NCBI GenBank assembly: GCA_021209225.1
Contig: JAJOIW010000240.1
Span: forward strand, 1 to 47,434
Source: Verrucomicrobiota bacterium
GTDB lineage: Bacteria > Verrucomicrobiota > Verrucomicrobiia > Limisphaerales > JAJOIW01
Direction of reading: 5' to 3'
Length of the DNA stretch: 47,434 nt
Under the pieces are notes generated by a model. It saw only the letters and a list, made by a program, of their open reading frames with translations. It ran no database searches and was not told the DNA's origin. This document shows positions 10,169-31,442 of the stretch, in pieces (the first letter of the stretch is position 1; each line of letters starts with the position of its first letter). Position numbers and translations under genes: made by a program.

Positions 10169-11363
10169 ATGAAGGGAATGGAAAAGATGATGAAAAGATC
10201 AGCAGGATTGAGAGTCGTGCTCTCGGGAAATGCCCAGCCAGGAAATGGCGGTCAGGGACTCAATCTCAAACAGATGATCGAAGGTTATGCAGAGGAGGAT
10301 CCCCATGACATGCATATCTTCTGTCAGGGACCTTATCTGGATTTTCCGGTCACAATCATCGGCCAATCGCCCATATCCCGGTTTGTGGCACGAACTCCTG
10401 GTCTCAGAAGAATGAGAGATTTTCATGTCTCCAAGAACGATGAGTATTTTGATCGCCGGGTGGCGGCCCAAATGCCTGACTGTGAATTATTTCAGGGAGC
10501 GACGGCCAGTGTCTGAAGTCCTTGCGCAAGGCCAGGCAGATTGGTGCCCGCACCCGTCTGGATGCCATCACAACTCACGTGGATGTCTATCACGAGGTGC
10601 AAACTGAAGAATGCAGTGCCTTCGGCATCCGTCCGATCATGTCCGCCTCACAGCGGCTCCAGATGCTCGAGGAATACCAGGAAGCTGACGAAATCCGGGT
10701 CATGTCGAATGTCGTCAGAAAAATGTTCCTGGATCGCGGATTTGATCCGGCGAAGGTTTTCACGCTCACCCCCCCATTCATTGCGATATTTCGGTTGGCT
10801 CAGCATCTGACGGATTGCCGGGGCATGGGGAACCTGAAGATTTCATTGTGGGGTATGCGGGTCTTCTGGAACCAGCCAAAGGGTTTCACTATCTGGTTAA
10901 AGCATTCCGCGAATTCGATGACCCCCGCGCTCAGCTCCAAATGTGGGGGGGGACGGGATCCAGGCCAGTCTTTGAATTCATAGGCAAAAATATGCATGAA
11001 GACCCGCGTATTCAGGTTAAAGAGGGAATGTGTATCCGCACCATGGGATACAGCAAAGTATACGGCCAGATGTCGGTTTTTGTCCATCCTTCTCTGGCGG
11101 ATGGATTTGGCTATGTGGTCTTTGAGGCCATGGCGTGTGGGAGACCGGTCATTGTCACTGAAAACACCGGAGCAGCTGATATAGTTCAAGACGGTATCAA
11201 TGGATTTATCGTCCCGATCCGAGACAGTCAGGCCATCCTGGAAAAACTTCATCTTCTAAGAAATTCGCCAGAGCTTCGCCAGAAAATGGGAGAGGCAGCT
11301 AGAATCAGCGCTCAAAATTTAACCTTTGAGAAATTCCGTCAGAATCTAAGGCAAGCTCATTAA
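10169..11363 (+). CDS. Glycosyltransferase family 4 protein, split by two frame breaks
   Basis: A GT-B retaining glycosyltransferase of about 398 residues once two one-base losses are corrected. The N-terminal half begins LRVVLSGNAQPGNGGQGLN. The C-terminal half has the nucleotide-sugar domain: FIVGYAGLLEPAKGFHYLVKAF, MWGGTG, VFVHPSLADGFGYVVFEAMACGRPVIVTENTGAAD. The first break is at GG 10504-10505, where GGG restores GATGQCLKSLRKARQ. The second is in the C run 10769-10775, where eight C restore TLTPPIHCDISVGSASDG. The ATG at 10169 follows GAAGGGGA. It opens a cluster with a sugar nucleotidyltransferase and an SDR, so it probably builds a surface glycan. Donor and acceptor are unknown. Confidence 0.82.
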
Positions 11364-14503: not shown

Positions 14504-16686
14504 ATGGACGATAGGGACCAGAATGGGGGCTCAGCATCAAACGATATGCAGCCCCCTCGCAGCATCGGGCTTCAGAATCCACCACCATTCAATTCCCGGA
14601 AAGTGGATGGACCCGCACACCCCGCATTTATGATGTCCTTGACCTGCTCACGGAGGTGATAATCTACGTTTCCATTCTCTTTGGTCCCTGGGCATTTGGA
14701 ACCACTCAGACTTGGGCTATCCAGGTCATGAATGGGATTGGATATTCTCTGGGGGTGCTATTTATCTCAAAGTGGGTGATTCGCATGGTGTACCGATACC
14801 GTCCGCACCGCTGGGGGTTTTCTGATTGCCCAGCTTCGTGGAGGACACGGATTTCAAAAATATTCACTGCTGTCCTGGCAATATTGACGGTGGCGATCCT
14901 GACCTTCTGCTTTATCTCCGCCTGGAATGCGCGCGCCAATTACGTATTGGGGTTTGGGTATTTTGATTATTTTGATGATTTCAACAAAAGCCTGCCGCAC
15001 AGTTATGATGCAGGTGCGACGTGGTCCGCATTTTACAATTATCTGGCCTTAGCCTGTTTTTTCTGGAGTATGCGGGACTGGTTGCTTGGAAAATCCCGTC
15101 GTGAGCGGCATGCATTCATGACTGAGGAAACGGAATCCACTTCTTCGTCCGCTCGTAAGCCGCGGTTTCGCCAATTGGTGTTGCCCGAGAGAATGAAGCG
15201 CCTTTTGTGGGTGATTTCCTGCAATGCGGCCCTCCTGTCGATGGTTTCTATTATTCAAAGACTCGACGGGGGCAACAAATTATTGTGGCTGCTGGAACCT
15301 CGGTGGAACAAAACAAATGAATCCCAGTTTGGTCCATACGCCTATCGCAGCAATGCTGCCCAGTATCTGAATCTGGCGTGGCCATTGTGTTTGGGTTTCT
15401 GGTGGGCATCCCAAAGGGCTTTTTCAGAAAACTTCCGTCGCACGGCGCGGGTTGGTCAGGGGGCGCATGTTGTTCTCCTGCCGATGGCTATAGTTACAGC
15501 CATTGGACCTCTGGTTGCGACAAGTCGCGGCGGCGTTCTGGTTTCCATATTAGGCACCTTTTCTGCCATCATTCTATTCACGTTGTTTGCTCAACGCACG
15601 AACTGGGTGACGCGGATTGGGATAACTGTGCTTTTTTCTGCGGTGATTGGGCTTGGGGCGTGGTTGGGCTGGGAGCCACTTCAGAAGCGGCTGGCAGCTC
15701 CAACATTCAAATTCACGACATCAGCCACAGAATCAACAGCGGATCAGGTTTCCATCTTCACCCGATTCACAGTCCCGGCTGTGGCGGATAAAAAGACGCT
15801 TTATTTACCCATTGTCTCGCCCCTTCAGACCATTCATAGCGGGCCGAAGTCACTCATTTCCCGGATTCTATCTAATGGCGAACTTCAAATATACCTGGTT
15901 GGGACAACGACCGGTGACTACATTATGAAATACATTCCTGGATTCACCGCGCAGTATGCCGGACAGGAGGTGGAGATGCTCTGGGTTAAAACCGATGAAC
16001 TTGCCGTTTATATAAATGGGGATCGGGTTGAAGTGTCCGAGCGCAAGACCGGAAATGCCCCATCGTGGTCCTCTCCTGCAGGAGTGGCATTTCTCTGGAA
16101 TGGGATCGGAAACACTGCCAAAGCCAATGGAGGGTATATTTCCCGCACTCAGGTTTTCACGAAATCGATTGTCCCATCGGATATCTCATTATTTGATTCG
16201 ATGCCCGATCTGGCGAAGGAAAGCGGACTCATCTATTTTAACGATTTCGCCCAGAAAGGTCTCTATTCCTTCCTGAATTCCGACACGAGTGGTCGGGATG
16301 AAATATTTAATACAGCTCAAAAAATAATCCATGATTTTCCTCTTTTTGGTTCCGGTCCGGGATCCTTTCCCCATGTGAACTCAATCTATATGGAAAATTC
16401 CTACCAATATTGGCATTCATATGTTCATGATGATTATCTTGAGACCTTAGCCACCTTTGGAATTGTAGGTTTCTCCATTATTATGGCCATGTTGATGGTG
16501 GTGCTCATTCACTGGTTTGTGGGTTCGGGGATTTTTCAATATTTTCCATTTGCTGCCATGATATTGATTGGAATTGGGGGGTGTCTGGCGCACGCCAAAT
16601 TTGATTTTCCATTTCAGGTCTATTCGATTCTGCACATATTTCTCATCAACTGTTGCTTGTTGATGACCATAGCCCGGAAAGCCTGA
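14504..16686 (+). CDS. O-antigen ligase/polymerase-like membrane protein with an inserted LamG-like domain; one frame break
   Basis: A multi-spanning Wzy/WaaL-type protein of about 727 residues that should polymerise or attach a surface glycan. The N-terminus from the ATG at 14504 (after AAGGATA) is polar; changing GG at 14609-14610 to GGG joins it to LDLLTEVIIYVSILFGPWAFG and a series of transmembrane helices. The C-terminal ligase part has DFPLFGSGPGSF, then a segment with YWHSYVHDDYLETLATFGIVG and more helices. Between them, about residues 410-560, lies a soluble beta-rich insert that resembles a LamG/concanavalin-like domain (VAVYINGDRVEV-type strand, GGYISRTQVFTKSIVPSDI end). The next gene, a secreted TIM-barrel protein, starts 8 bases after the stop. 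The frame break is probably a read error. Confidence 0.75.
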
Positions 16687-16694
16687 AGGTGGAT

Positions 16695-17864
16695 ATGGAT
16701 TGGATCAGGGTATTTTCAGGATTTGCGGTTGTTGTCTGGACGATGACCCAATGTGTCGGACCTGCGCGGCAGGTCGCTGAGTCAAATGCTCACAAGCGTG
16801 TGGACTTTCCCATCGGTCTGTTCGGACCAGGCTCCGTTTCCCAGTATCAGAAGCTGGCCGATTTGGGATTCAATACCATAGTGGCTGGAGTTTCTGCTGA
16901 GGTATTAGACGGGGCTTTCAAAGCTGGACTTTCCGTGGTGGGGCAAGCTGGGACTCAGGCGGGTGCCCGTTTTGATCCTGGAAAGGCTGGTGAATCTATC
17001 CGGTTATTTGATGCTCATCCTGCGCTGAAAACCTGGTATGTCGTCGATGAGCCCGCATTTAATAAGATCGATCCGAAGTATGTATCCCGGGCTGCGGAGG
17101 TCTATCGCGAGGCAGGTGCCACCAAGCCTTTGGCGATCACCATGTGGTTTGCAGAACGCTCCAACCACTATATCGATGCGATCGATATACTCATGATCGA
17201 TCGCTATCCTGTTCCCTGGATGCCTGCATCTGATCTGGGTCAACATGTCAGGTTGGGGAAGCTTGCTGCCGGCTATGACAAACCAGTCTGGGCCATTATC
17301 CAGGCTTTTTCGTGGGAAGTTTATCCGGGTCTGATGCCTCAGGAGATCAACCTGCGTCCTCCCTCGTATGCGGAACTTCGCGCCATGGTATTTGATGCCG
17401 TCGCCCAAGGTGCGGAGGGAATTCTCTTTTTTGGATATCAGGTATCATCCTGGAACCTTGAAGATCATCCTGGAGTCTGGGCATCCATCCAGATCGTCGT
17501 CGATGAACTCAGAAAGTTCATTCCAATTGTGACTGGAGCCAGAATCTGGAGAGCCACCGATGCGCAGTACAAGGTGTATTCTCAAAGATTTAACACGCGT
17601 GGTTTTTCCGCCATATCGCTCGCTTTTTTTGAGGTCTCATTGCGGAAGTCGACCTCTGAGGTCCCACCTGGAGTCTATCTTCTTGCTGTGAATACGACGG
17701 AATTGGACCAGGAAGTATCCATTCGCATCCGCGATCTGCCTGTCTCTGCAGAGCCTCTGACTGTTCCAAGACTGACGGATGAAAAGACCATGCCGATCCA
17801 GGATCAGTGGATTTCAGAACGCTTCGATCCGCTTGAGGTCCATATCTATGGTCCACTTCCCTGA
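16695..17864 (+). CDS. Secreted TIM-barrel glycoside hydrolase-like protein
   Basis: A protein of 389 residues with an N-terminal signal segment (VFSGFAVVVWTMTQCVG) and a barrel-like order: FPIGLFGPGS, LADLGFNTIV, KTWYVVDEPAFNKI, PLAITMW, AIDILMIDRYPV, KPVWAIIQAF, and FDAVAQGAEGILFFGYQ. The Asp-Glu-Pro after the fourth strand resembles the acid/base position of several hydrolase clans, but I do not recognise the family. A beta-rich C-terminal end (about residues 290-389) may be an accessory domain. The ATG at 16695 is preferred; GTG at 16689 is possible. It lies 8 bases after the O-antigen ligase-like gene, so the two are probably co-expressed and act on the same glycan. Confidence 0.6.
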   Translation: MDWIRVFSGFAVVVWTMTQCVGPARQVAESNAHKRVDFPIGLFGPGSVSQYQKLADLGFNTIVAGVSAEVLDGAFKAGLSVVGQAGTQAGARFDPGKAGESIRLFDAHPALKTWYVVDEPAFNKIDPKYVSRAAEVYREAGATKPLAITMWFAERSNHYIDAIDILMIDRYPVPWMPASDLGQHVRLGKLAAGYDKPVWAIIQAFSWEVYPGLMPQEINLRPPSYAELRAMVFDAVAQGAEGILFFGYQVSSWNLEDHPGVWASIQIVVDELRKFIPIVTGARIWRATDAQYKVYSQRFNTRGFSAISLAFFEVSLRKSTSEVPPGVYLLAVNTTELDQEVSIRIRDLPVSAEPLTVPRLTDEKTMPIQDQWISERFDPLEVHIYGPLP

Positions 17865-18284: not shown

Positions 18285-19725
18285 ATGGTCCAGGGACAGA
18301 ATCATCAACCGGCAGCGCAGGATCCTTTTTTACGATCGGTGGAGCAATATTTTGACAAGGCAGCAGCATTCACCAAGTTTCCTGATGGATTGCTGCAGCA
18401 GGTTAAAACCTGCAACAGCGTCTATCGCATGTCATTTCCCGTCGAACATGAGGATGGGCGGATTGAGGTGGTGGAGGCCTATCGGGCCCAACACAGCCAT
18501 CATCGATTGCCGACCAAGGGTGGGATTCGTTTCAGCATGATGGTATCCATGGAGGAGACAGTGGCTCTAGCCTCTTTGATGACCTACAAGTGTGCGATCG
18601 TGGATGTGCCATTCGGTGGGGCGAAAGGGGGGGTGCGGGTGGATCCACACCAACTCACCACCACATTCAAACGGCGATTAGTCCGCAGACTCACCGCTGA
18701 GATGGTCCGCAAGAATTTCATCGGGCCAGAGGTCGATGTGCCTGCCCCCGATTATGGCACCGGTGAGCAGGAGATGGCATGGATTGCAGATACCTATGTG
18801 GCATTGCAGCCCCATCAAATCAATGGATTTGCCTGTGTGACGGGCAAGCCTCTCTCACTGCACGGTATACCAGGAAGAAAGGAGGCCACTGGGTTAGGAG
18901 TCTATTACGGTCTTGATGAATGCATGAGGCAATCGGCCACCATGAAGCGGCTGGGCATGGATCCCGGCCTCGAAGGAAAGACGGTCATTATTCAGGGCCT
19001 GGGCAATGTGGGATTCCATTCAGGGAAGTATCTGCAGGAATCCGGAGGCGCCATCATAGTAGGCGTCGCTGAAAGAGAAGGGGGAGTCTACTCCACAAAA
19101 GGAATAGACATTAATGAATTATTCCTCTACCGGCAGTCACACGGTACGGTGGAGAATTTTCCCGGTACAATTTTTGTTCCTCAGTCGACAGATTTACTGA
19201 CATATCCATGTGACATATTGATTCCTGCGGCGCTGGAGAATCAGATTACGGAATTGAATGCGGCACACATTCAGGCAAAGATCATAGCGGAAGCTGCGAA
19301 TGGCCCAACCACTTCCGGTGGCGAAGCCATACTGAACCAGAAAAACTGTCTGGTGATTCCAGATGTTTTTCTGAATGCGGGTGGGGGTCACCGTATCGTA
19401 TTTTGAATGGCTGAAGAATCTGTCGCATGTCAGTTTTGACCGCATGACCAGTCGCCAGCAGATCAACAATAACAATCGGATACTGGACGTCCTGCAAAGC
19501 ATGACTGGCCGCCAGCTGTCCGTGGAGCAGAAGGCACTCTTCGCTCATGGCACACGCGAAGTCGATTATGTGCATTCGGCACTGGCAGATACGATGACCC
19601 GTGCCTATCAGGATGTGCACGAATGCTGGCAATCCCAGGGGCTGCCGGATATGCGGACGGCCGCCTTTTATTTCGCCATCAACCGGGTGGCCAAAGCCTA
19701 TGAAACTATGGGAATATTCCCCTAA
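18285..19725 (+). CDS. gdhA: Glutamate dehydrogenase (Glu/Leu/Phe/Val family), split by one frame break
   Basis: It interconverts glutamate and 2-oxoglutarate plus ammonia. The catalytic part has PTKGGIRFS, then TYKCAIVDVPFGGAKGGVRVDP with the active-site Lys, and PAPDYGTGEQEMAWIADTY. The cofactor domain has VTGKPLSLHGIPGRKEATGLG and VIIQGLGNVGFHSGKYL. The frame ends early at 19406 after DVFLNAGGG; removing one G from the G run at 19383-19387 restores the family sequence NAGGVTVSYFEWLKNLSHV and a normal C-terminus, for 479 residues in all. The ATG at 18285 is the only good start. The break is more likely a read error than a lost gene. Confidence 0.88.
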
Positions 19726-19741: not shown

Positions 19742-20481
19742 TTATTCGCTTCCGGTCAGATGTGTGTGACTCAGTGTGCGGAACTGCGCTAATTCCTGAA
19801 GCCAGGCTTGAATATCCGGTTCGTCCAGCCCATTCAGAATCTGAATCCCGGCTGACAGGCCCAGGCGGTTTGCGCCTGCCTGGATAAGTTGGAGGGCTGT
19901 CCGGGTATCGCGGATTCCTCCTGAGGCTTTGACGCCCATTTTTTTACCTACAACCTGACGCATTAATTGCACGTCGTGAATAGTTGCTCCGGCGCGGCCA
20001 AATCCTGTGGAGGTTTTGACGAAGTGGGTTCCGGCATCGCTTGCGACCTGGCATGCGGTGCGTTTCTCCTCGTCCGTGAGCAGACAGGTTTCCAGAATAA
20101 CCTTGACGATGCGGTCCTCAGCCGCCTCCACAATGTCCCGCAACTCGCGATGGATGAATTCCAGATCCCCTAGCTTCAATCGGCCGCAGGTAGGACAACG
20201 TCTATTTCTGAGGCACCATTATCCACGGCTGCCTCGGTTTCATAGCGCTTGACATCCGAATCCATGCAGCCGTGTGGAAACCCCACCACCGCACAAACTT
20301 GGATATTCGATCCCTCGAGCATGGCTGAAGCCAGTGACGTCCAGCCTCCATGAACACAGACGCTGAAGAAATGGTGATGGATTGCTTCCTCGCATAAAGC
20401 TCTTACGTCCGAGGCAGTTGCATCCGGACGTAAAAGTGTGTGGTCAATCACCCCGGCCAGTTCCTGCTTTAAATTATTCAT
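19742..20481 (-). CDS. deoC: Deoxyribose-phosphate aldolase, split by one frame break
   Basis: It splits 2-deoxyribose 5-phosphate to acetaldehyde and glyceraldehyde 3-phosphate in nucleoside salvage. The N-terminal frame has IDHTLLRPDATASDVRALCEEA, CVHGGW, VGFPHG and ASEIDVVLPAAD, then stops at about 20178. The next frame continues LKLGDLEFIHREL, KVILETCLL, HFVKTSTGFGRAGAT with the Schiff-base Lys, and VKASGGIRD. Adding one T to TT at 20178-20179 on the coding strand joins them into about 246 residues. The ATG at 20481 (or 20487) is likely; the frame extends further upstream without homology. It converges with gdhA, 16 bases apart. Confidence 0.87.
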
Positions 20482-20575
20482 TATCATAAACCTATAAAAA
20501 TCCCCGGCCAATTCCAGAAAAACTCTCAGAATATTCTTTTCAAGAGAGGACTTTGCCAGTCGATACCGGAGTGTG

Positions 20576-21001
20576 ATGATTAAGCAGAGTGATTGTGAAT
20601 CTTTATGGGGCGCTGCGTGTGAATACGCCCAATTAGCTTCCGACAAGTTTGTGAAAGAATGGCCGCATTGGTCAGAAAATGAAAAAAAGATGGCACGTGA
20701 AAAAACACGTGAAGAGATGCAGATTCATTTTCTATTTCCAAATCTTCAGGATGGCGAGCGGTATGCGTTATTGGCATTGAAATTTGCCAACAAGAGTGTG
20801 AGCCTGCTGGTCAACAGCCCCACTGTCGGACTCAATGATGAGCAACGGAAAGACCGTGAATTCAAAACCACCGAAGTTGAAAAACTCTTTCTGGAAGCAA
20901 AAAGCCATGTCCTCGCCTGTGGGTTATTCCGCAAACTGTCGCCTGTCCAGCAGAATATCATTCAGGATAAATATCTGAATATTGATTTCCAATTGGATTA
21001 A
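20576..21001 (+). CDS. Hypothetical protein
   Basis: I do not recognise this 141-residue protein. It is soluble, mostly helical and rich in charged residues (WSENEKKMAREKTREEMQ, DEQRKDREFKTTEVEKLF), with no signal peptide or membrane helix. It is divergent from deoC, with 94 bases between the starts, and is followed by a Rho-independent terminator, which supports it as a real gene. GTG one codon upstream is an alternative start. Confidence 0.6.
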   Translation: MIKQSDCESLWGAACEYAQLASDKFVKEWPHWSENEKKMAREKTREEMQIHFLFPNLQDGERYALLALKFANKSVSLLVNSPTVGLNDEQRKDREFKTTEVEKLFLEAKSHVLACGLFRKLSPVQQNIIQDKYLNIDFQLD

Positions 21002-27951: not shown

Positions 27952-28977
27952 ATGAAATGTCTGGTGACTGGAATCAGCGGATTTATAGGTGGCCATGTGG
28001 CTCGGGATCTCATTCGTCGAGGACACCAGGTGCGTGGATTCCATAGGCAAGGCGCCGATCTCCGGGCCGTCGCCGATCTGGAGTTTGAATCCTTTCCCGG
28101 CGACCTCACAGATCGGGACGCCGTCATGGACTCGGTTCGGGGTTGCGAGCAAGTCTACCATGTCGGAGCAGCCTACTCTTTGTGGATGAGGAATTACTCC
28201 CCCATGTATGCCGCCAATGTGGATGGGACACGTTTCATTTTTGAAGCAGCCGCCCGGCATGGAGCTGATCGGGTCATTTACACCAGCACCGTTGGATGTG
28301 TAGGTGTGCCTCACAGGAGAAACCGCGATGCCTCAGGCCGTGTGATCCCAACCAATGAGAGCGCATTCCTGCCGGAATCCGCCATGTTGAATCCCTACAA
28401 ACATTCCAAATGGCTCGCGGAACAAATAGCTCTGGAAAAAGCCGCTGCGGGTCAACCCATTGTCATAGTCAATCCAAGTGCCCCAGTGGGCCCGGGCGAT
28501 ATCAAACCAACCCCTACCGGACAGGTCATTCTCGACTTCATCCGGCGCAAAATGCCGGCTTACCTCGATACCGGCCTGAATTGGGTGGATGTGCGGGATG
28601 TGGCCGCTGCCCATTTCCTCGCCGGTCAGGTGGGAGTTCCAGGGCAAAGATATATCCTCGGAAACCAGGAAGGTAACTGGACCATGAAACAATTTCTCGA
28701 GTGCCTCTCCGACCTGACCGGGCTCCCTGCGCCCAGGTTTCAGGTGCCTTATGCTGTCGCCTGGACGGCTGCCCTGGTGGATGAATCCATTGCCCGATGG
28801 ACTGGGCGTCCTCCCACAGCGCCTATGGGTGGAGTCCGCATGGCCAAAAATCTGATGTGGTTCGATCCCTCCAGGGCAGTCCGAGAATTGGGCATGCCAC
28901 AGAATCCACTGAAGTCCGCTCTGCTCGATGCGGTCCAGGACCTCCGAATCCGGTTTAATCTTCCGGAATCCCGTTGA
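27952..28977 (+). CDS. hpnA: Hopanoid-associated sugar epimerase (HpnA-type SDR)
   Basis: An extended SDR of 341 residues. It begins MKCLVTGISGFIGGHVARDL with the NAD-binding GxxGxxG. The catalytic part has VIYTSTVGCVGVP and NPYKHSKWLAEQIAL (YxxxK). The HpnA group shows the strings VNPSAPVGPGDIKPTPTG and RKMPAYLDTGLNWVDVRDVAAAH, which are clearly present. HpnA is linked to hopanoid lipid gene clusters, though its exact step is not established. No squalene-hopene cyclase or other hpn gene is near, so it stands alone here. It overlaps the convergent flippase gene by 23 bases. Confidence 0.85.
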   Translation: MKCLVTGISGFIGGHVARDLIRRGHQVRGFHRQGADLRAVADLEFESFPGDLTDRDAVMDSVRGCEQVYHVGAAYSLWMRNYSPMYAANVDGTRFIFEAAARHGADRVIYTSTVGCVGVPHRRNRDASGRVIPTNESAFLPESAMLNPYKHSKWLAEQIALEKAAAGQPIVIVNPSAPVGPGDIKPTPTGQVILDFIRRKMPAYLDTGLNWVDVRDVAAAHFLAGQVGVPGQRYILGNQEGNWTMKQFLECLSDLTGLPAPRFQVPYAVAWTAALVDESIARWTGRPPTAPMGGVRMAKNLMWFDPSRAVRELGMPQNPLKSALLDAVQDLRIRFNLPESR

Positions 28978-30296
28978 TTTTCATTCCCTCTGCTGCACCT
29001 CCCCGCCTCAGCCGAATCGCCAATCCGGAACAGAGCAGCAACATGAAACTGAAAAATCCAATAGTCTGAATAACCCCGACGAGAGTCGACGGAGTACAGA
29101 TTGCCAGATAAACCGCATAGACGGCTGCGATGGAAACCAACAGTCCAAAATGCCGATATTCCCGCATCGCTATCAGTTGATTGATCAGAACATTTGCCAG
29201 ACATAGGGGGGTCATGCACCAGACAAACCATGGGGCCAGTCGGCAGATCCCTGAAATCCGTGCCTTCTGATCACTGTGCATCGATCCTATTGCCTCCGAA
29301 AATATACGAGGTTCCCAACTCCCATCCATCAAATTCATCCCGATCCAACCCGTGACTGTCACCACCCCACACACAACCCCTGCCATACCGACCGTCGCCA
29401 GCAAGGACGCCCGAACCACCCTCCCCGCGGAAAAGCCCGATCCCATCATCTGAACCACTTTCGGAAACATCACCTGCGCTATCGGAATCGTGAATATCAC
29501 CAACCCACGCCCGCACAGCCCCGCCGCCCCATATTGCCCAGTCAGGTCAGGCTCAAATTTCGCCCGCACCACAATCATGTCATACCCCAGAAAAAAACGT
29601 CGATGACCCCAACCCCAACGTCAACGGCATAATCCTCTTCAACCACTCCCCCCACGAAAACCCCTCACCATCCCCACTCGCCGACTTCTCCACGCGCCAC
29701 CAACACAAGCCCAATGCCCCACAAAATCCAATCAATGCCGCCCCAACAGCCCCGGAAACCCCGAATCCGCACACACCCACCAATATGCTCGCCGCGCAGA
29801 ATCTGCCAAAACCGTTGGCAATGGTGGCGTTTCCCAGCCAGAAGAATTTCTGCTGTCCCTGCAGAATGCCCATCCACACAGGCAGCCACAACTGCGGCAG
29901 GGCTGCGGTCAAGGTGAGCCAGAGTGGCCAGGTGGAGGGGGATTTGAGTTGGGAGGCGAGGAGGTTTTGGGTGATGAGGAGGGTGAAGGCGGCGAGGATC
30001 CAGATGGAGGTGATGGCTGAGAGGACGTTTTTGGCGGTGAGTGAGGTGAGGGATTTTTGGAGGGGTGTGGAATCGGAGGCGGATTGTTGGGCGAAGACGG
30101 TTTGGAGTCCGAGGGCTGGGATCATGGCGAGGTTGAGGGTTTGGAAGAGAGCGTTCATGAGGCCGTATTGATCATCATTGAGCCATCCGACGGCGACGAC
30201 CTGAACCAGGAACATGAAAGCGCCTCCGAGGGTTGTGGCGGTCATGAGCCATCCGCTGGCTTTGAGGAAGGATGGGGGTTTGGGGTTGCCGGTCAT
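28955..30296 (-). CDS. Polysaccharide flippase-like membrane protein, split by one frame break
   Basis: A multi-spanning protein of about 446 residues (MATE/MVF-type, Wzx-like). The N-terminal frame has WLMTATTLGGAFMFLVQVVAV and several helices, with LPQLWLPVWMGILQGQQKFFWLGN typical of the family. It stops after STFFSG at about 29580. Removing one A from A7 at 29591-29597 gives STFFLGYDMIVVRAKF, and the second frame goes on with YGAAGLCGRGLVIFTIPIAQVMFPKVV and more helices. The ATG at 30296 overlaps the peptidase stop as ATGA. It likely moves lipid-linked sugars for surface polysaccharide. Its coding strand changes from C-rich to G-rich within the gene, which is unusual. Confidence 0.8.
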
Positions 30297-31442
30297 GGTT
30301 GAGCGAGGAGGAATCGGGTCAGTTGAGAATGGGCGAGATGGAGGGAATTGAGGTCGATCCATTCATTTTGAGTGTGAGCCTGAGCGATATTGCCTGGGCC
30401 ATAGACGACGCATGGGGTTCCGTTGGAGCGGATGATGGCGGCATCGCAGAAGTAGCTGACCCCTAATGGGCATGTGTCCCCGGTGAAATGCATGAGGGAT
30501 TGAACGAAGGGGTTGTGTGGGTCGGTTTCCATAGGGGGACAGTCCACTCCTTTGGAATCGGCGAAATCGAGGTGGAGACCGGCTGAGAGGGCGAGCTGAG
30601 ACATTTCCTGTTGGAAGGACTGAGCGGATTCGCCTGGGAGAGTCCGGCGATCGACATCAATGGAGCATAAGTCTGGCACGATATTGTTCTGGAGGCCGCC
30701 GGAGATGCGGCCAATATTGAGGGTGGGGTGTCCGAGCAGGGGATGGGAACGGCTTTGCAAAATGGTCTGGTAATCGTTTCTGAGGAGGTGGATGAAGTCG
30801 GCCATTTTATGAATGGCATTGACACCTAATTGAGGGGTGGCGCCGTGGGCAGCCTGGCCGTGCAGGGTCATTTTCATCCAGAGGTTGCCTTTGTGGGCTG
30901 TGACGCAGTGGCAATCGGTGGGTTCGCCGATAATGGCCAGGCTTAAAGGTGGCAGGTGGGATGCGAGAGCGCGGGATCCGAGTTGTTGGCATTCCTCATC
31001 GACCAGACCGACGAAAAGGACATCCGTTTCAGCGAGTCCCCGGGTGGTGCTGGCGACATCGGCAATGGCCTGGAACATGGCGGCGACGACTGCCCTTGGT
31101 ATCGCAGGCGCCGCGGCCGTAAAGTTTTCCATCGCGGATTTCCGGTTGGAGTTGCCAGGATTCGGAGACGCTCACCGTATCCAGATGAGGCATCAATCCA
31201 ATGGTATGGCGGGCGGGCTGCTGTCGTGCGGGAAGGGAAATCAGAACGTTCTGGCGCCCCTGCGCCACATCCTGAAATTCGACATATAACCCCAGATTTC
31301 TGGCTTTTTCTGCCAGAAATTCCACCATTCGGGACTCTCCGGACTGCGAGGATTCCAAGGCATGGAAAGCTGGGTTGATGCTGGGGATGGCGACCAGGTC
31401 GCAAAGAAGTTGTGTCAGGGAATCCGGGTTGAGAGCACTCAC
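30293..31442 (-). CDS. M20-family metallopeptidase (ArgE/DapE type), split by one frame break
   Basis: A two-zinc amidohydrolase of about 382 residues. The first frame has LCDLVAIPSINPAF, GLMPHLDTVSV with metal ligand His-86 and Asp-88, and LYGRGACDTK with the bridging Asp. It is out of frame after that. Removing one G from GGG at 31093-31095 on the coding strand gives CDTKAVVAAMFQAI, and the second frame has DVLFVGLVDEECQQLGSRAL with the catalytic Glu, IIGEPTD, MTLHGQAAHGATP, GGLQNNIVPD and AHTQNEW with the last His. The start is GTG at 31442. The type matches acetylornithine deacetylase or succinyl-diaminopimelate desuccinylase; the substrate is not decided. Confidence 0.85.

Follow-up and report, generated by a model that had tools for sequence, protein, structure and literature searches.

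The window, by which we mean the whole 47,434-nucleotide stretch analysed here (contig C208), belongs to a MAG (G000; 3.29 Mb, 248 contigs, 57.7% complete) and carries a gene for an O-antigen ligase-like membrane protein (Table 1). A Pfam scan of this open reading frame matched Wzy_C (PF04932) at the C-terminus (E=2e-9), with family scores of 37.8 and 41.0 bits, above the curated cut-off of 31.7, in agreement with the preliminary description, which had proposed a protein of the Wzy/WaaL type. The Wzy_C family covers polymerases and O-oligosaccharyltransferases besides ligases, and judged by sequence the window protein could be any of the three. Its named relatives come mostly from Limisphaerales, Pedosphaera and other Verrucomicrobia MAGs, which makes Verrucomicrobiota the very probable source. 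The same genome encodes a second Wzy_C protein (L002, contig C129, 624 aa), which, like several of the relatives, carries C-terminal TPR repeats. The ligase gene is surrounded by polysaccharide genes, including a heparinase-like C-terminus, a UDP-sugar dehydrogenase (by sequence) and a GT4 glycosyltransferase, with a nucleotidyltransferase and a GDP-mannose dehydratase-type epimerase as further neighbours. A polysaccharide flippase-like protein (28955-30362; PF01943, weak) is split over two adjacent ORFs.

Table 1. Features of the ligase locus in window coordinates; residues are numbered as in P0001.
Feature	Position	Strand	Remarks
Wzy_C / O-antigen ligase-like membrane protein	14656..16686	+	676 aa from GTG
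N-terminal membrane part, nine helices	14656..15693	+	predicted, 9-sequence AlphaFold2 model; conserved in 61 relatives
R338 of the SRGG motif	15526..15528	+	at least 90% conserved in alignment A2
R392, just before the insert	15688..15690	+	invariant in alignment A2
Whole insert relative to insert-less relatives	15694..16293	+	200 residues replacing 9-11 (18 in one); alignment
LamG / ConA-like domain proper (putative)	15739..16191	+	insert profiles and motif register
Return linker from LamG domain to conserved SGR	16192..16293	+	second domain of ~150 aa instead in eight relatives
R594, first residue after the insert	16294..16296	+	Arg of the large periplasmic loop; invariant in alignment A2
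H638-x-D640-xx-E643	16426..16443	+	invariant in A2; proposed catalytic His position of WaaL-type enzymes, by motif
Secreted/lipoprotein-like protein with distant GH158 similarity	16653..17864	+	downstream neighbour, not part of the insert

The ligase frame is open from 14515 to 16686 and, after its stop at 14512, has no standard start codon before the GTG at 14656. Because homology to the relatives continues upstream of this GTG in the alignment (TRTPRIYDVLDLLTE / RTPxxYxxxDxLTE), it is likely that the true start lies in another frame further upstream, or that the contig contains an indel. Indels in the contig are also suggested by the broken frames of the nearby glutamate dehydrogenase and DeoC genes. 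By translation, each of these genes (18285-19725 and 19742-20646, respectively) is split over two frames, as is the GT4 gene (10522-11363), which may reflect either an indel-prone contig or pseudogenes. The corrected length of 727 residues given in the preliminary description is reached from the ATG at 14504, which stands in a different frame from the ligase ORF, by means of one one-base frameshift between 14504 and ~14611; the extension upstream of the GTG agrees with the homology, while the length itself depends on this frameshift. The question of the start has no effect on the insert.

Residues 394-593 of the protein form a stretch that gives it ~190 extra residues at a single site. Between L393 and R594, 45 aligned relatives hold 9-18 residues (18 in L028 and 9-11 in the rest), and 16 others carry a homologous insert of 192-352 residues at the identical site. 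Two forms of the insert occur among the aligned proteins: LamG alone (192-217 aa; ten proteins, including that of the window) and LamG followed by a second domain (339-352 aa; seven proteins, plus L146). The class-wide search gave the same picture, as relatives of ~500 aa matched the query up to ~346 and again from ~540, as separate pieces. Thus the layout described earlier, with a domain set between the N-terminal helices and the C-terminal ligase motif, corresponds to a clean presence/absence difference at one site.

The second domain (~150 aa, in L052, L007, L009, L040, L050, L051, L095 and L146) looks beta-rich by eye and gave no match in Pfam; towards its end it shows a weak resemblance (E=0.04) to the module next after LamG in the tail-fibre-like protein L091.

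An unusually long but ordinary ligase loop that resembles LamG by accident could be suspected, since Wzy/WaaL proteins vary in their large periplasmic loops according to the literature, and since the window insert taken alone has no significant Pfam match. This explanation is extremely unlikely. Because insert-less relatives hold 9-18 residues at the site, the usual loop does not include the insert, and those relatives (9-11 residues at 40-50% identity) retain the entire ordinary loop beyond the site. In addition, the inserts as a family show similarity to LamG and to ConA-like proteins with solved structures, as detailed below.

The beta-rich, LamG-like region previously placed at 15721-16200 lies inside the insert, and the motifs quoted for it fall at LamG motif positions: VYINGDRVEV corresponds to the 'lYvNGxxl' strand, and SRTQVFTKSIVPSDI to the last strand before '..ALxxxEI'. 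The Pfam check suggested for the insert gave a divided result, in that seven of the 17 inserts of the family matched Laminin_G_3 (PF13385; best 5.4e-7), while the window insert itself gave no match at E up to 10 and is assigned through its relatives. It scored 87 bits (E=8e-26) with a profile built from the remaining 16 inserts, whereas 1000 shuffles of the window insert reached at most 6 bits (E 0.5 or worse), so that its likeness to the family is not due to chance. By BLASTP, it aligned with the insert of L052 over 162 columns (4e-12).

The profile of the inserts matched the N-terminal lectin domain of pneumococcal NanB (1.3e-6), with most of the domain aligned and the YxNG and ALxxxE motifs in register. 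A second profile, to which tail-fibre relatives had been added, matched NanB, a pentraxin, an S-layer protein, NanC and PAPP-A, and judged from their names no proteins of other folds appeared at E up to 0.01; we take NanB, pentraxin, NanC and PAPP-A to be all ConA-like. These profiles point with high confidence to a LamG/ConA-like fold for the insert family, which the window's own copy would share. An AlphaFold2 model built from nine sequences, the window protein and eight relatives lacking the insert, showed the LamG region as strands and coil with a pLDDT of ~20-40, a low confidence explained by the lack of insert-bearing relatives, and hence of depth, in the alignment, so that the model speaks neither for nor against a jelly roll; a single-sequence model of the window protein had a pLDDT of 40.

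The membrane part is modelled much better, with pLDDT mostly at 80-95 for the N-terminal helices in the nine-sequence model. Helices are predicted at residues 19-46, 62-90, 119-144, 178-203, 226-259, 270-288, 291-311 and 317-346, and, C-terminal to the insert, at 593-622, 630-649 and 656-671; together with a short first helix that the GTG start truncates, this amounts to ~12 membrane helices. The insert would thus follow helix 9 and precede the large loop's conserved Arg, with the conserved His in the same loop. R594 and H638 are invariant among 32 aligned relatives, and R392, R594, H638, D640 and E643 are invariant in insert-bearing and insert-less proteins alike. Roles for the His and Arg have been described in WaaL and PglS (PMC12800693). 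A Foldseek search of the nine-sequence model against the PDB returned no match at E up to 0.001, including no solved WaaL, and PDB sequence searches with the whole ligase protein or the family profile gave chance matches only.

Averaged over the relatives, the N-terminus, loops C3 and C4 and the C-terminus, on the side opposite the insert, carry a net positive charge, and two presumed cytoplasmic loops are charge-neutral. Because of these positive segments, and of the helix count, the insert is very probably located on the periplasmic side, in line with the outer position predicted earlier.

A check of relatives for the same layout had been suggested, and the layout was found there: a profile search identified 20 ligase loci with the insert, all with open frames, in 17 of the 320 genomes of the order, of which 148 contain the ligase core at E up to 1e-10. 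The insertion of the domain is therefore real and recurrent, and the LamG layout is not unique to the window protein. Two further loci with a strong insert-profile match (L147 and L148) were rejected as insert-bearing ligases and are excluded from this count, as they encode tail-fibre-like proteins. The insert-bearing proteins belong to families f1, f6, f8, f15 and f75, and none was seen outside the order among 286 genomes across the class. Judged from open-frame lengths, two genomes (G331 and G333) apparently harbor one insert-bearing and one insert-less copy each. On the core tree the presence of the insert changes state five times, with root and direction not set, and a single clade of insert-bearing ligases was not rejected (p-AU 0.175); one early gain and several gains both fit.

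In two close pairs the dN/dS of the insert was 0.18 and 0.09, compared to 0.27 and 0.23 for the core, and the insert is thus under purifying selection. In distant pairs, for which dN/dS is unreliable because dS is saturated, insert identity was clearly below that of the core (e.g. 33-36% versus 55-58%); the insert appears to diverge faster than the core, as a specificity domain would.

Outside the ligases, the best matches of the insert profile in the order were three tail-fibre-like proteins (56-79 bits), while the next LamG proteins scored at most 36 bits; a fourth tail-fibre-like match (L160) came from another order of the class. For L088, one of these proteins, a PHROG tail fibre was matched, and terminase, portal, major head and tape-measure genes lie on the same contig; tape-measure genes are also present on the contigs of L149 and L160, the latter with a head gene as well. 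For comparison, the source genome itself has 27 LamG matches at E up to 0.001. In phage databases, tblastn of INPHARED phage genomes with the window insert or that of L052 found nothing significant, and scans of IMG/VR with two tail-fibre LamG modules found no relatives.

Tail-fibre-like proteins with LamG modules were also noted at L164 (phage DNA in G334), L165 (G531), L091 (G329) and L166 (G221). Their LamG modules are closer to the ligase inserts than are the other LamG domains of the order, and phage structural genes lie close to L164, L165 and L166.

A grouping of the window insert with the tail-fibre LamGs in the LamG tree was set aside, as its support was weak and accompanied by a long-branch warning, and as in pairwise comparison the window insert scores 48.5 bits with the L052 ligase insert but 31.2 bits with the tail LamG of L091; one clade of ligase inserts was not rejected in this tree (p-AU 0.13). 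Judged from these sequences, it is possible that the ligase insert descended from tail fibres. We consider it very doubtful that the LamG domains of the ligase and of the tail fibres of phages of the same hosts are a single interchangeable module by which both recognise the same class of surface glycan. If they were, the enzyme building the coat and the phage reading that coat would have a common sensor through domain swapping.

These relationships bear on whether the insert has any function, as it could be a passenger: a LamG module that is mobile, possibly of phage tail-fibre origin, and sits in a tolerant surface loop. The patchy distribution with its five state changes, the tail-fibre-like nature of the closest non-ligase relatives and the faster divergence of the insert would all fit such a passenger. 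A functionless module nevertheless seems improbable, given the low dN/dS in the two close pairs, the retention of open frames at all 20 loci in 17 genomes, and the elaboration of the insert with a second domain in one family.

The explanation that we favour, and consider rather probable as a whole, is that of a Wzy_C transferase bearing a LamG domain, which would most likely be a glycan-holding module. The host enzyme would be a periplasmic glycan transferase (O-antigen ligase, related polymerase or O-oligosaccharyltransferase) whose large periplasmic loop has taken up, at its start and ahead of the conserved Arg and His, a beta-sandwich of the LamG/ConA-like kind. Acting as a built-in carbohydrate-binding module (CBM), the domain may grip the undecaprenyl-diphosphate-linked glycan or the acceptor glycan near the active site and thereby raise its local concentration or set the choice of substrate, while catalysis would proceed as in the insert-less relatives. 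In its specific form, as a CBM for the lipid-linked or acceptor glycan, this assignment is tentative and draws on analogy with GT-C enzymes, as the CBMs of EmbC, AftD and ORF12 bind the acceptor glycan, with direct contacts to the acceptor polysaccharide in EmbC and AftD (PMC11127046). On the other hand, the CBM of ORF12 binds O-polysaccharide and yet is dispensable for activity (PMC11127046), which counts against such a role, as does the fact that the majority of relatives manage without the insert.

The putative secreted or lipoprotein-like protein encoded directly downstream could be a different partner for the domain. This ORF has no Pfam match of its own; a profile of it and two relatives showed distant similarity to GH158 (9oro, E=1.7e-5), and a conserved Cys follows a hydrophobic stretch in a lipobox-like manner. 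Since LamG domains mediate protein contacts as well as sugar binding, and since the GH158-like ORF recurs beside the ligase (L035, L087, L090, L092, L101 and L102), the insert might be a docking domain for this neighbour, for a chain-length regulator or for an export component, rather than for a glycan. We regard docking as unlikely, because the significant profile matches of known structure include sialidase lectin domains, which bind glycans, and because the GH158-like protein also adjoins insert-less ligases (L035, L092, L101 and L102). The neighbour therefore does not explain the insert, and a link between the two was dropped.

Glycan recognition by O-antigen ligases and Wzy-type enzymes is poorly understood, partly due to their varied substrates and enzyme sequences. 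The enzyme described here may have acquired, within its own structure, a means of holding its sugar chain. Because the lectin-like domain is present at one exact site in some of these naturally occurring enzymes and absent from others, the effect of periplasmic glycan binding on chain choice, length and rate becomes testable. The layout has probably escaped annotation because Pfam scans of the full-length insert-bearing proteins give LamG matches below the cut-off or none. No paper describing LamG within a ligase was found in the open library searched, where its absence proves little.

Several known systems can be compared with the window protein. Like WaaL (CAZy family GT121; that of C. metallidurans is 7TPG/7TPJ), the PglL/PglS O-oligosaccharyltransferases and the Wzy polymerases, it matches PF04932 and has ~12 predicted membrane helices. 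It also has, as do WaaL and other Wzy_C proteins, a conserved Arg and His in the large loop between model helices nine and ten; unlike them, it bears an additional LamG domain at the start of this loop. By profile, the insert shares its fold family with Laminin_G_3 (PF13385), with the lectin domains of NanB-type sialidases and with LamG modules found in phage tail fibres, but those domains normally occur in secreted, surface or virion proteins and not inside a polytopic membrane glycosyltransferase. Like the GT-C enzymes EmbA/B/C, AftD and Citrobacter ORF12 (GT136), the window protein would, by prediction, be a membrane glycosyltransferase with lipid-linked donors and with a beta-rich domain of carbohydrate-binding type in the periplasm (PMC11127046), although its catalytic family differs, as does the type of domain (LamG versus the Ig-like CBM of the GT-C enzymes). 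The position differs as well, as the CBM of ORF12 follows helix 11 towards the C-terminus, whereas the domain of the window protein interrupts the loop right before the conserved Arg. Finally, the bimodular WadA (GT121 and GT25) shows that ligases can carry extra domains, being a Wzy_C/GT121 ligase fused to an additional glycan-related domain (PMC10920833), an arrangement that the window protein would share; in WadA this is an appended glycosyltransferase domain, while in the window protein a lectin-like domain appears to be inserted in the catalytic loop itself.
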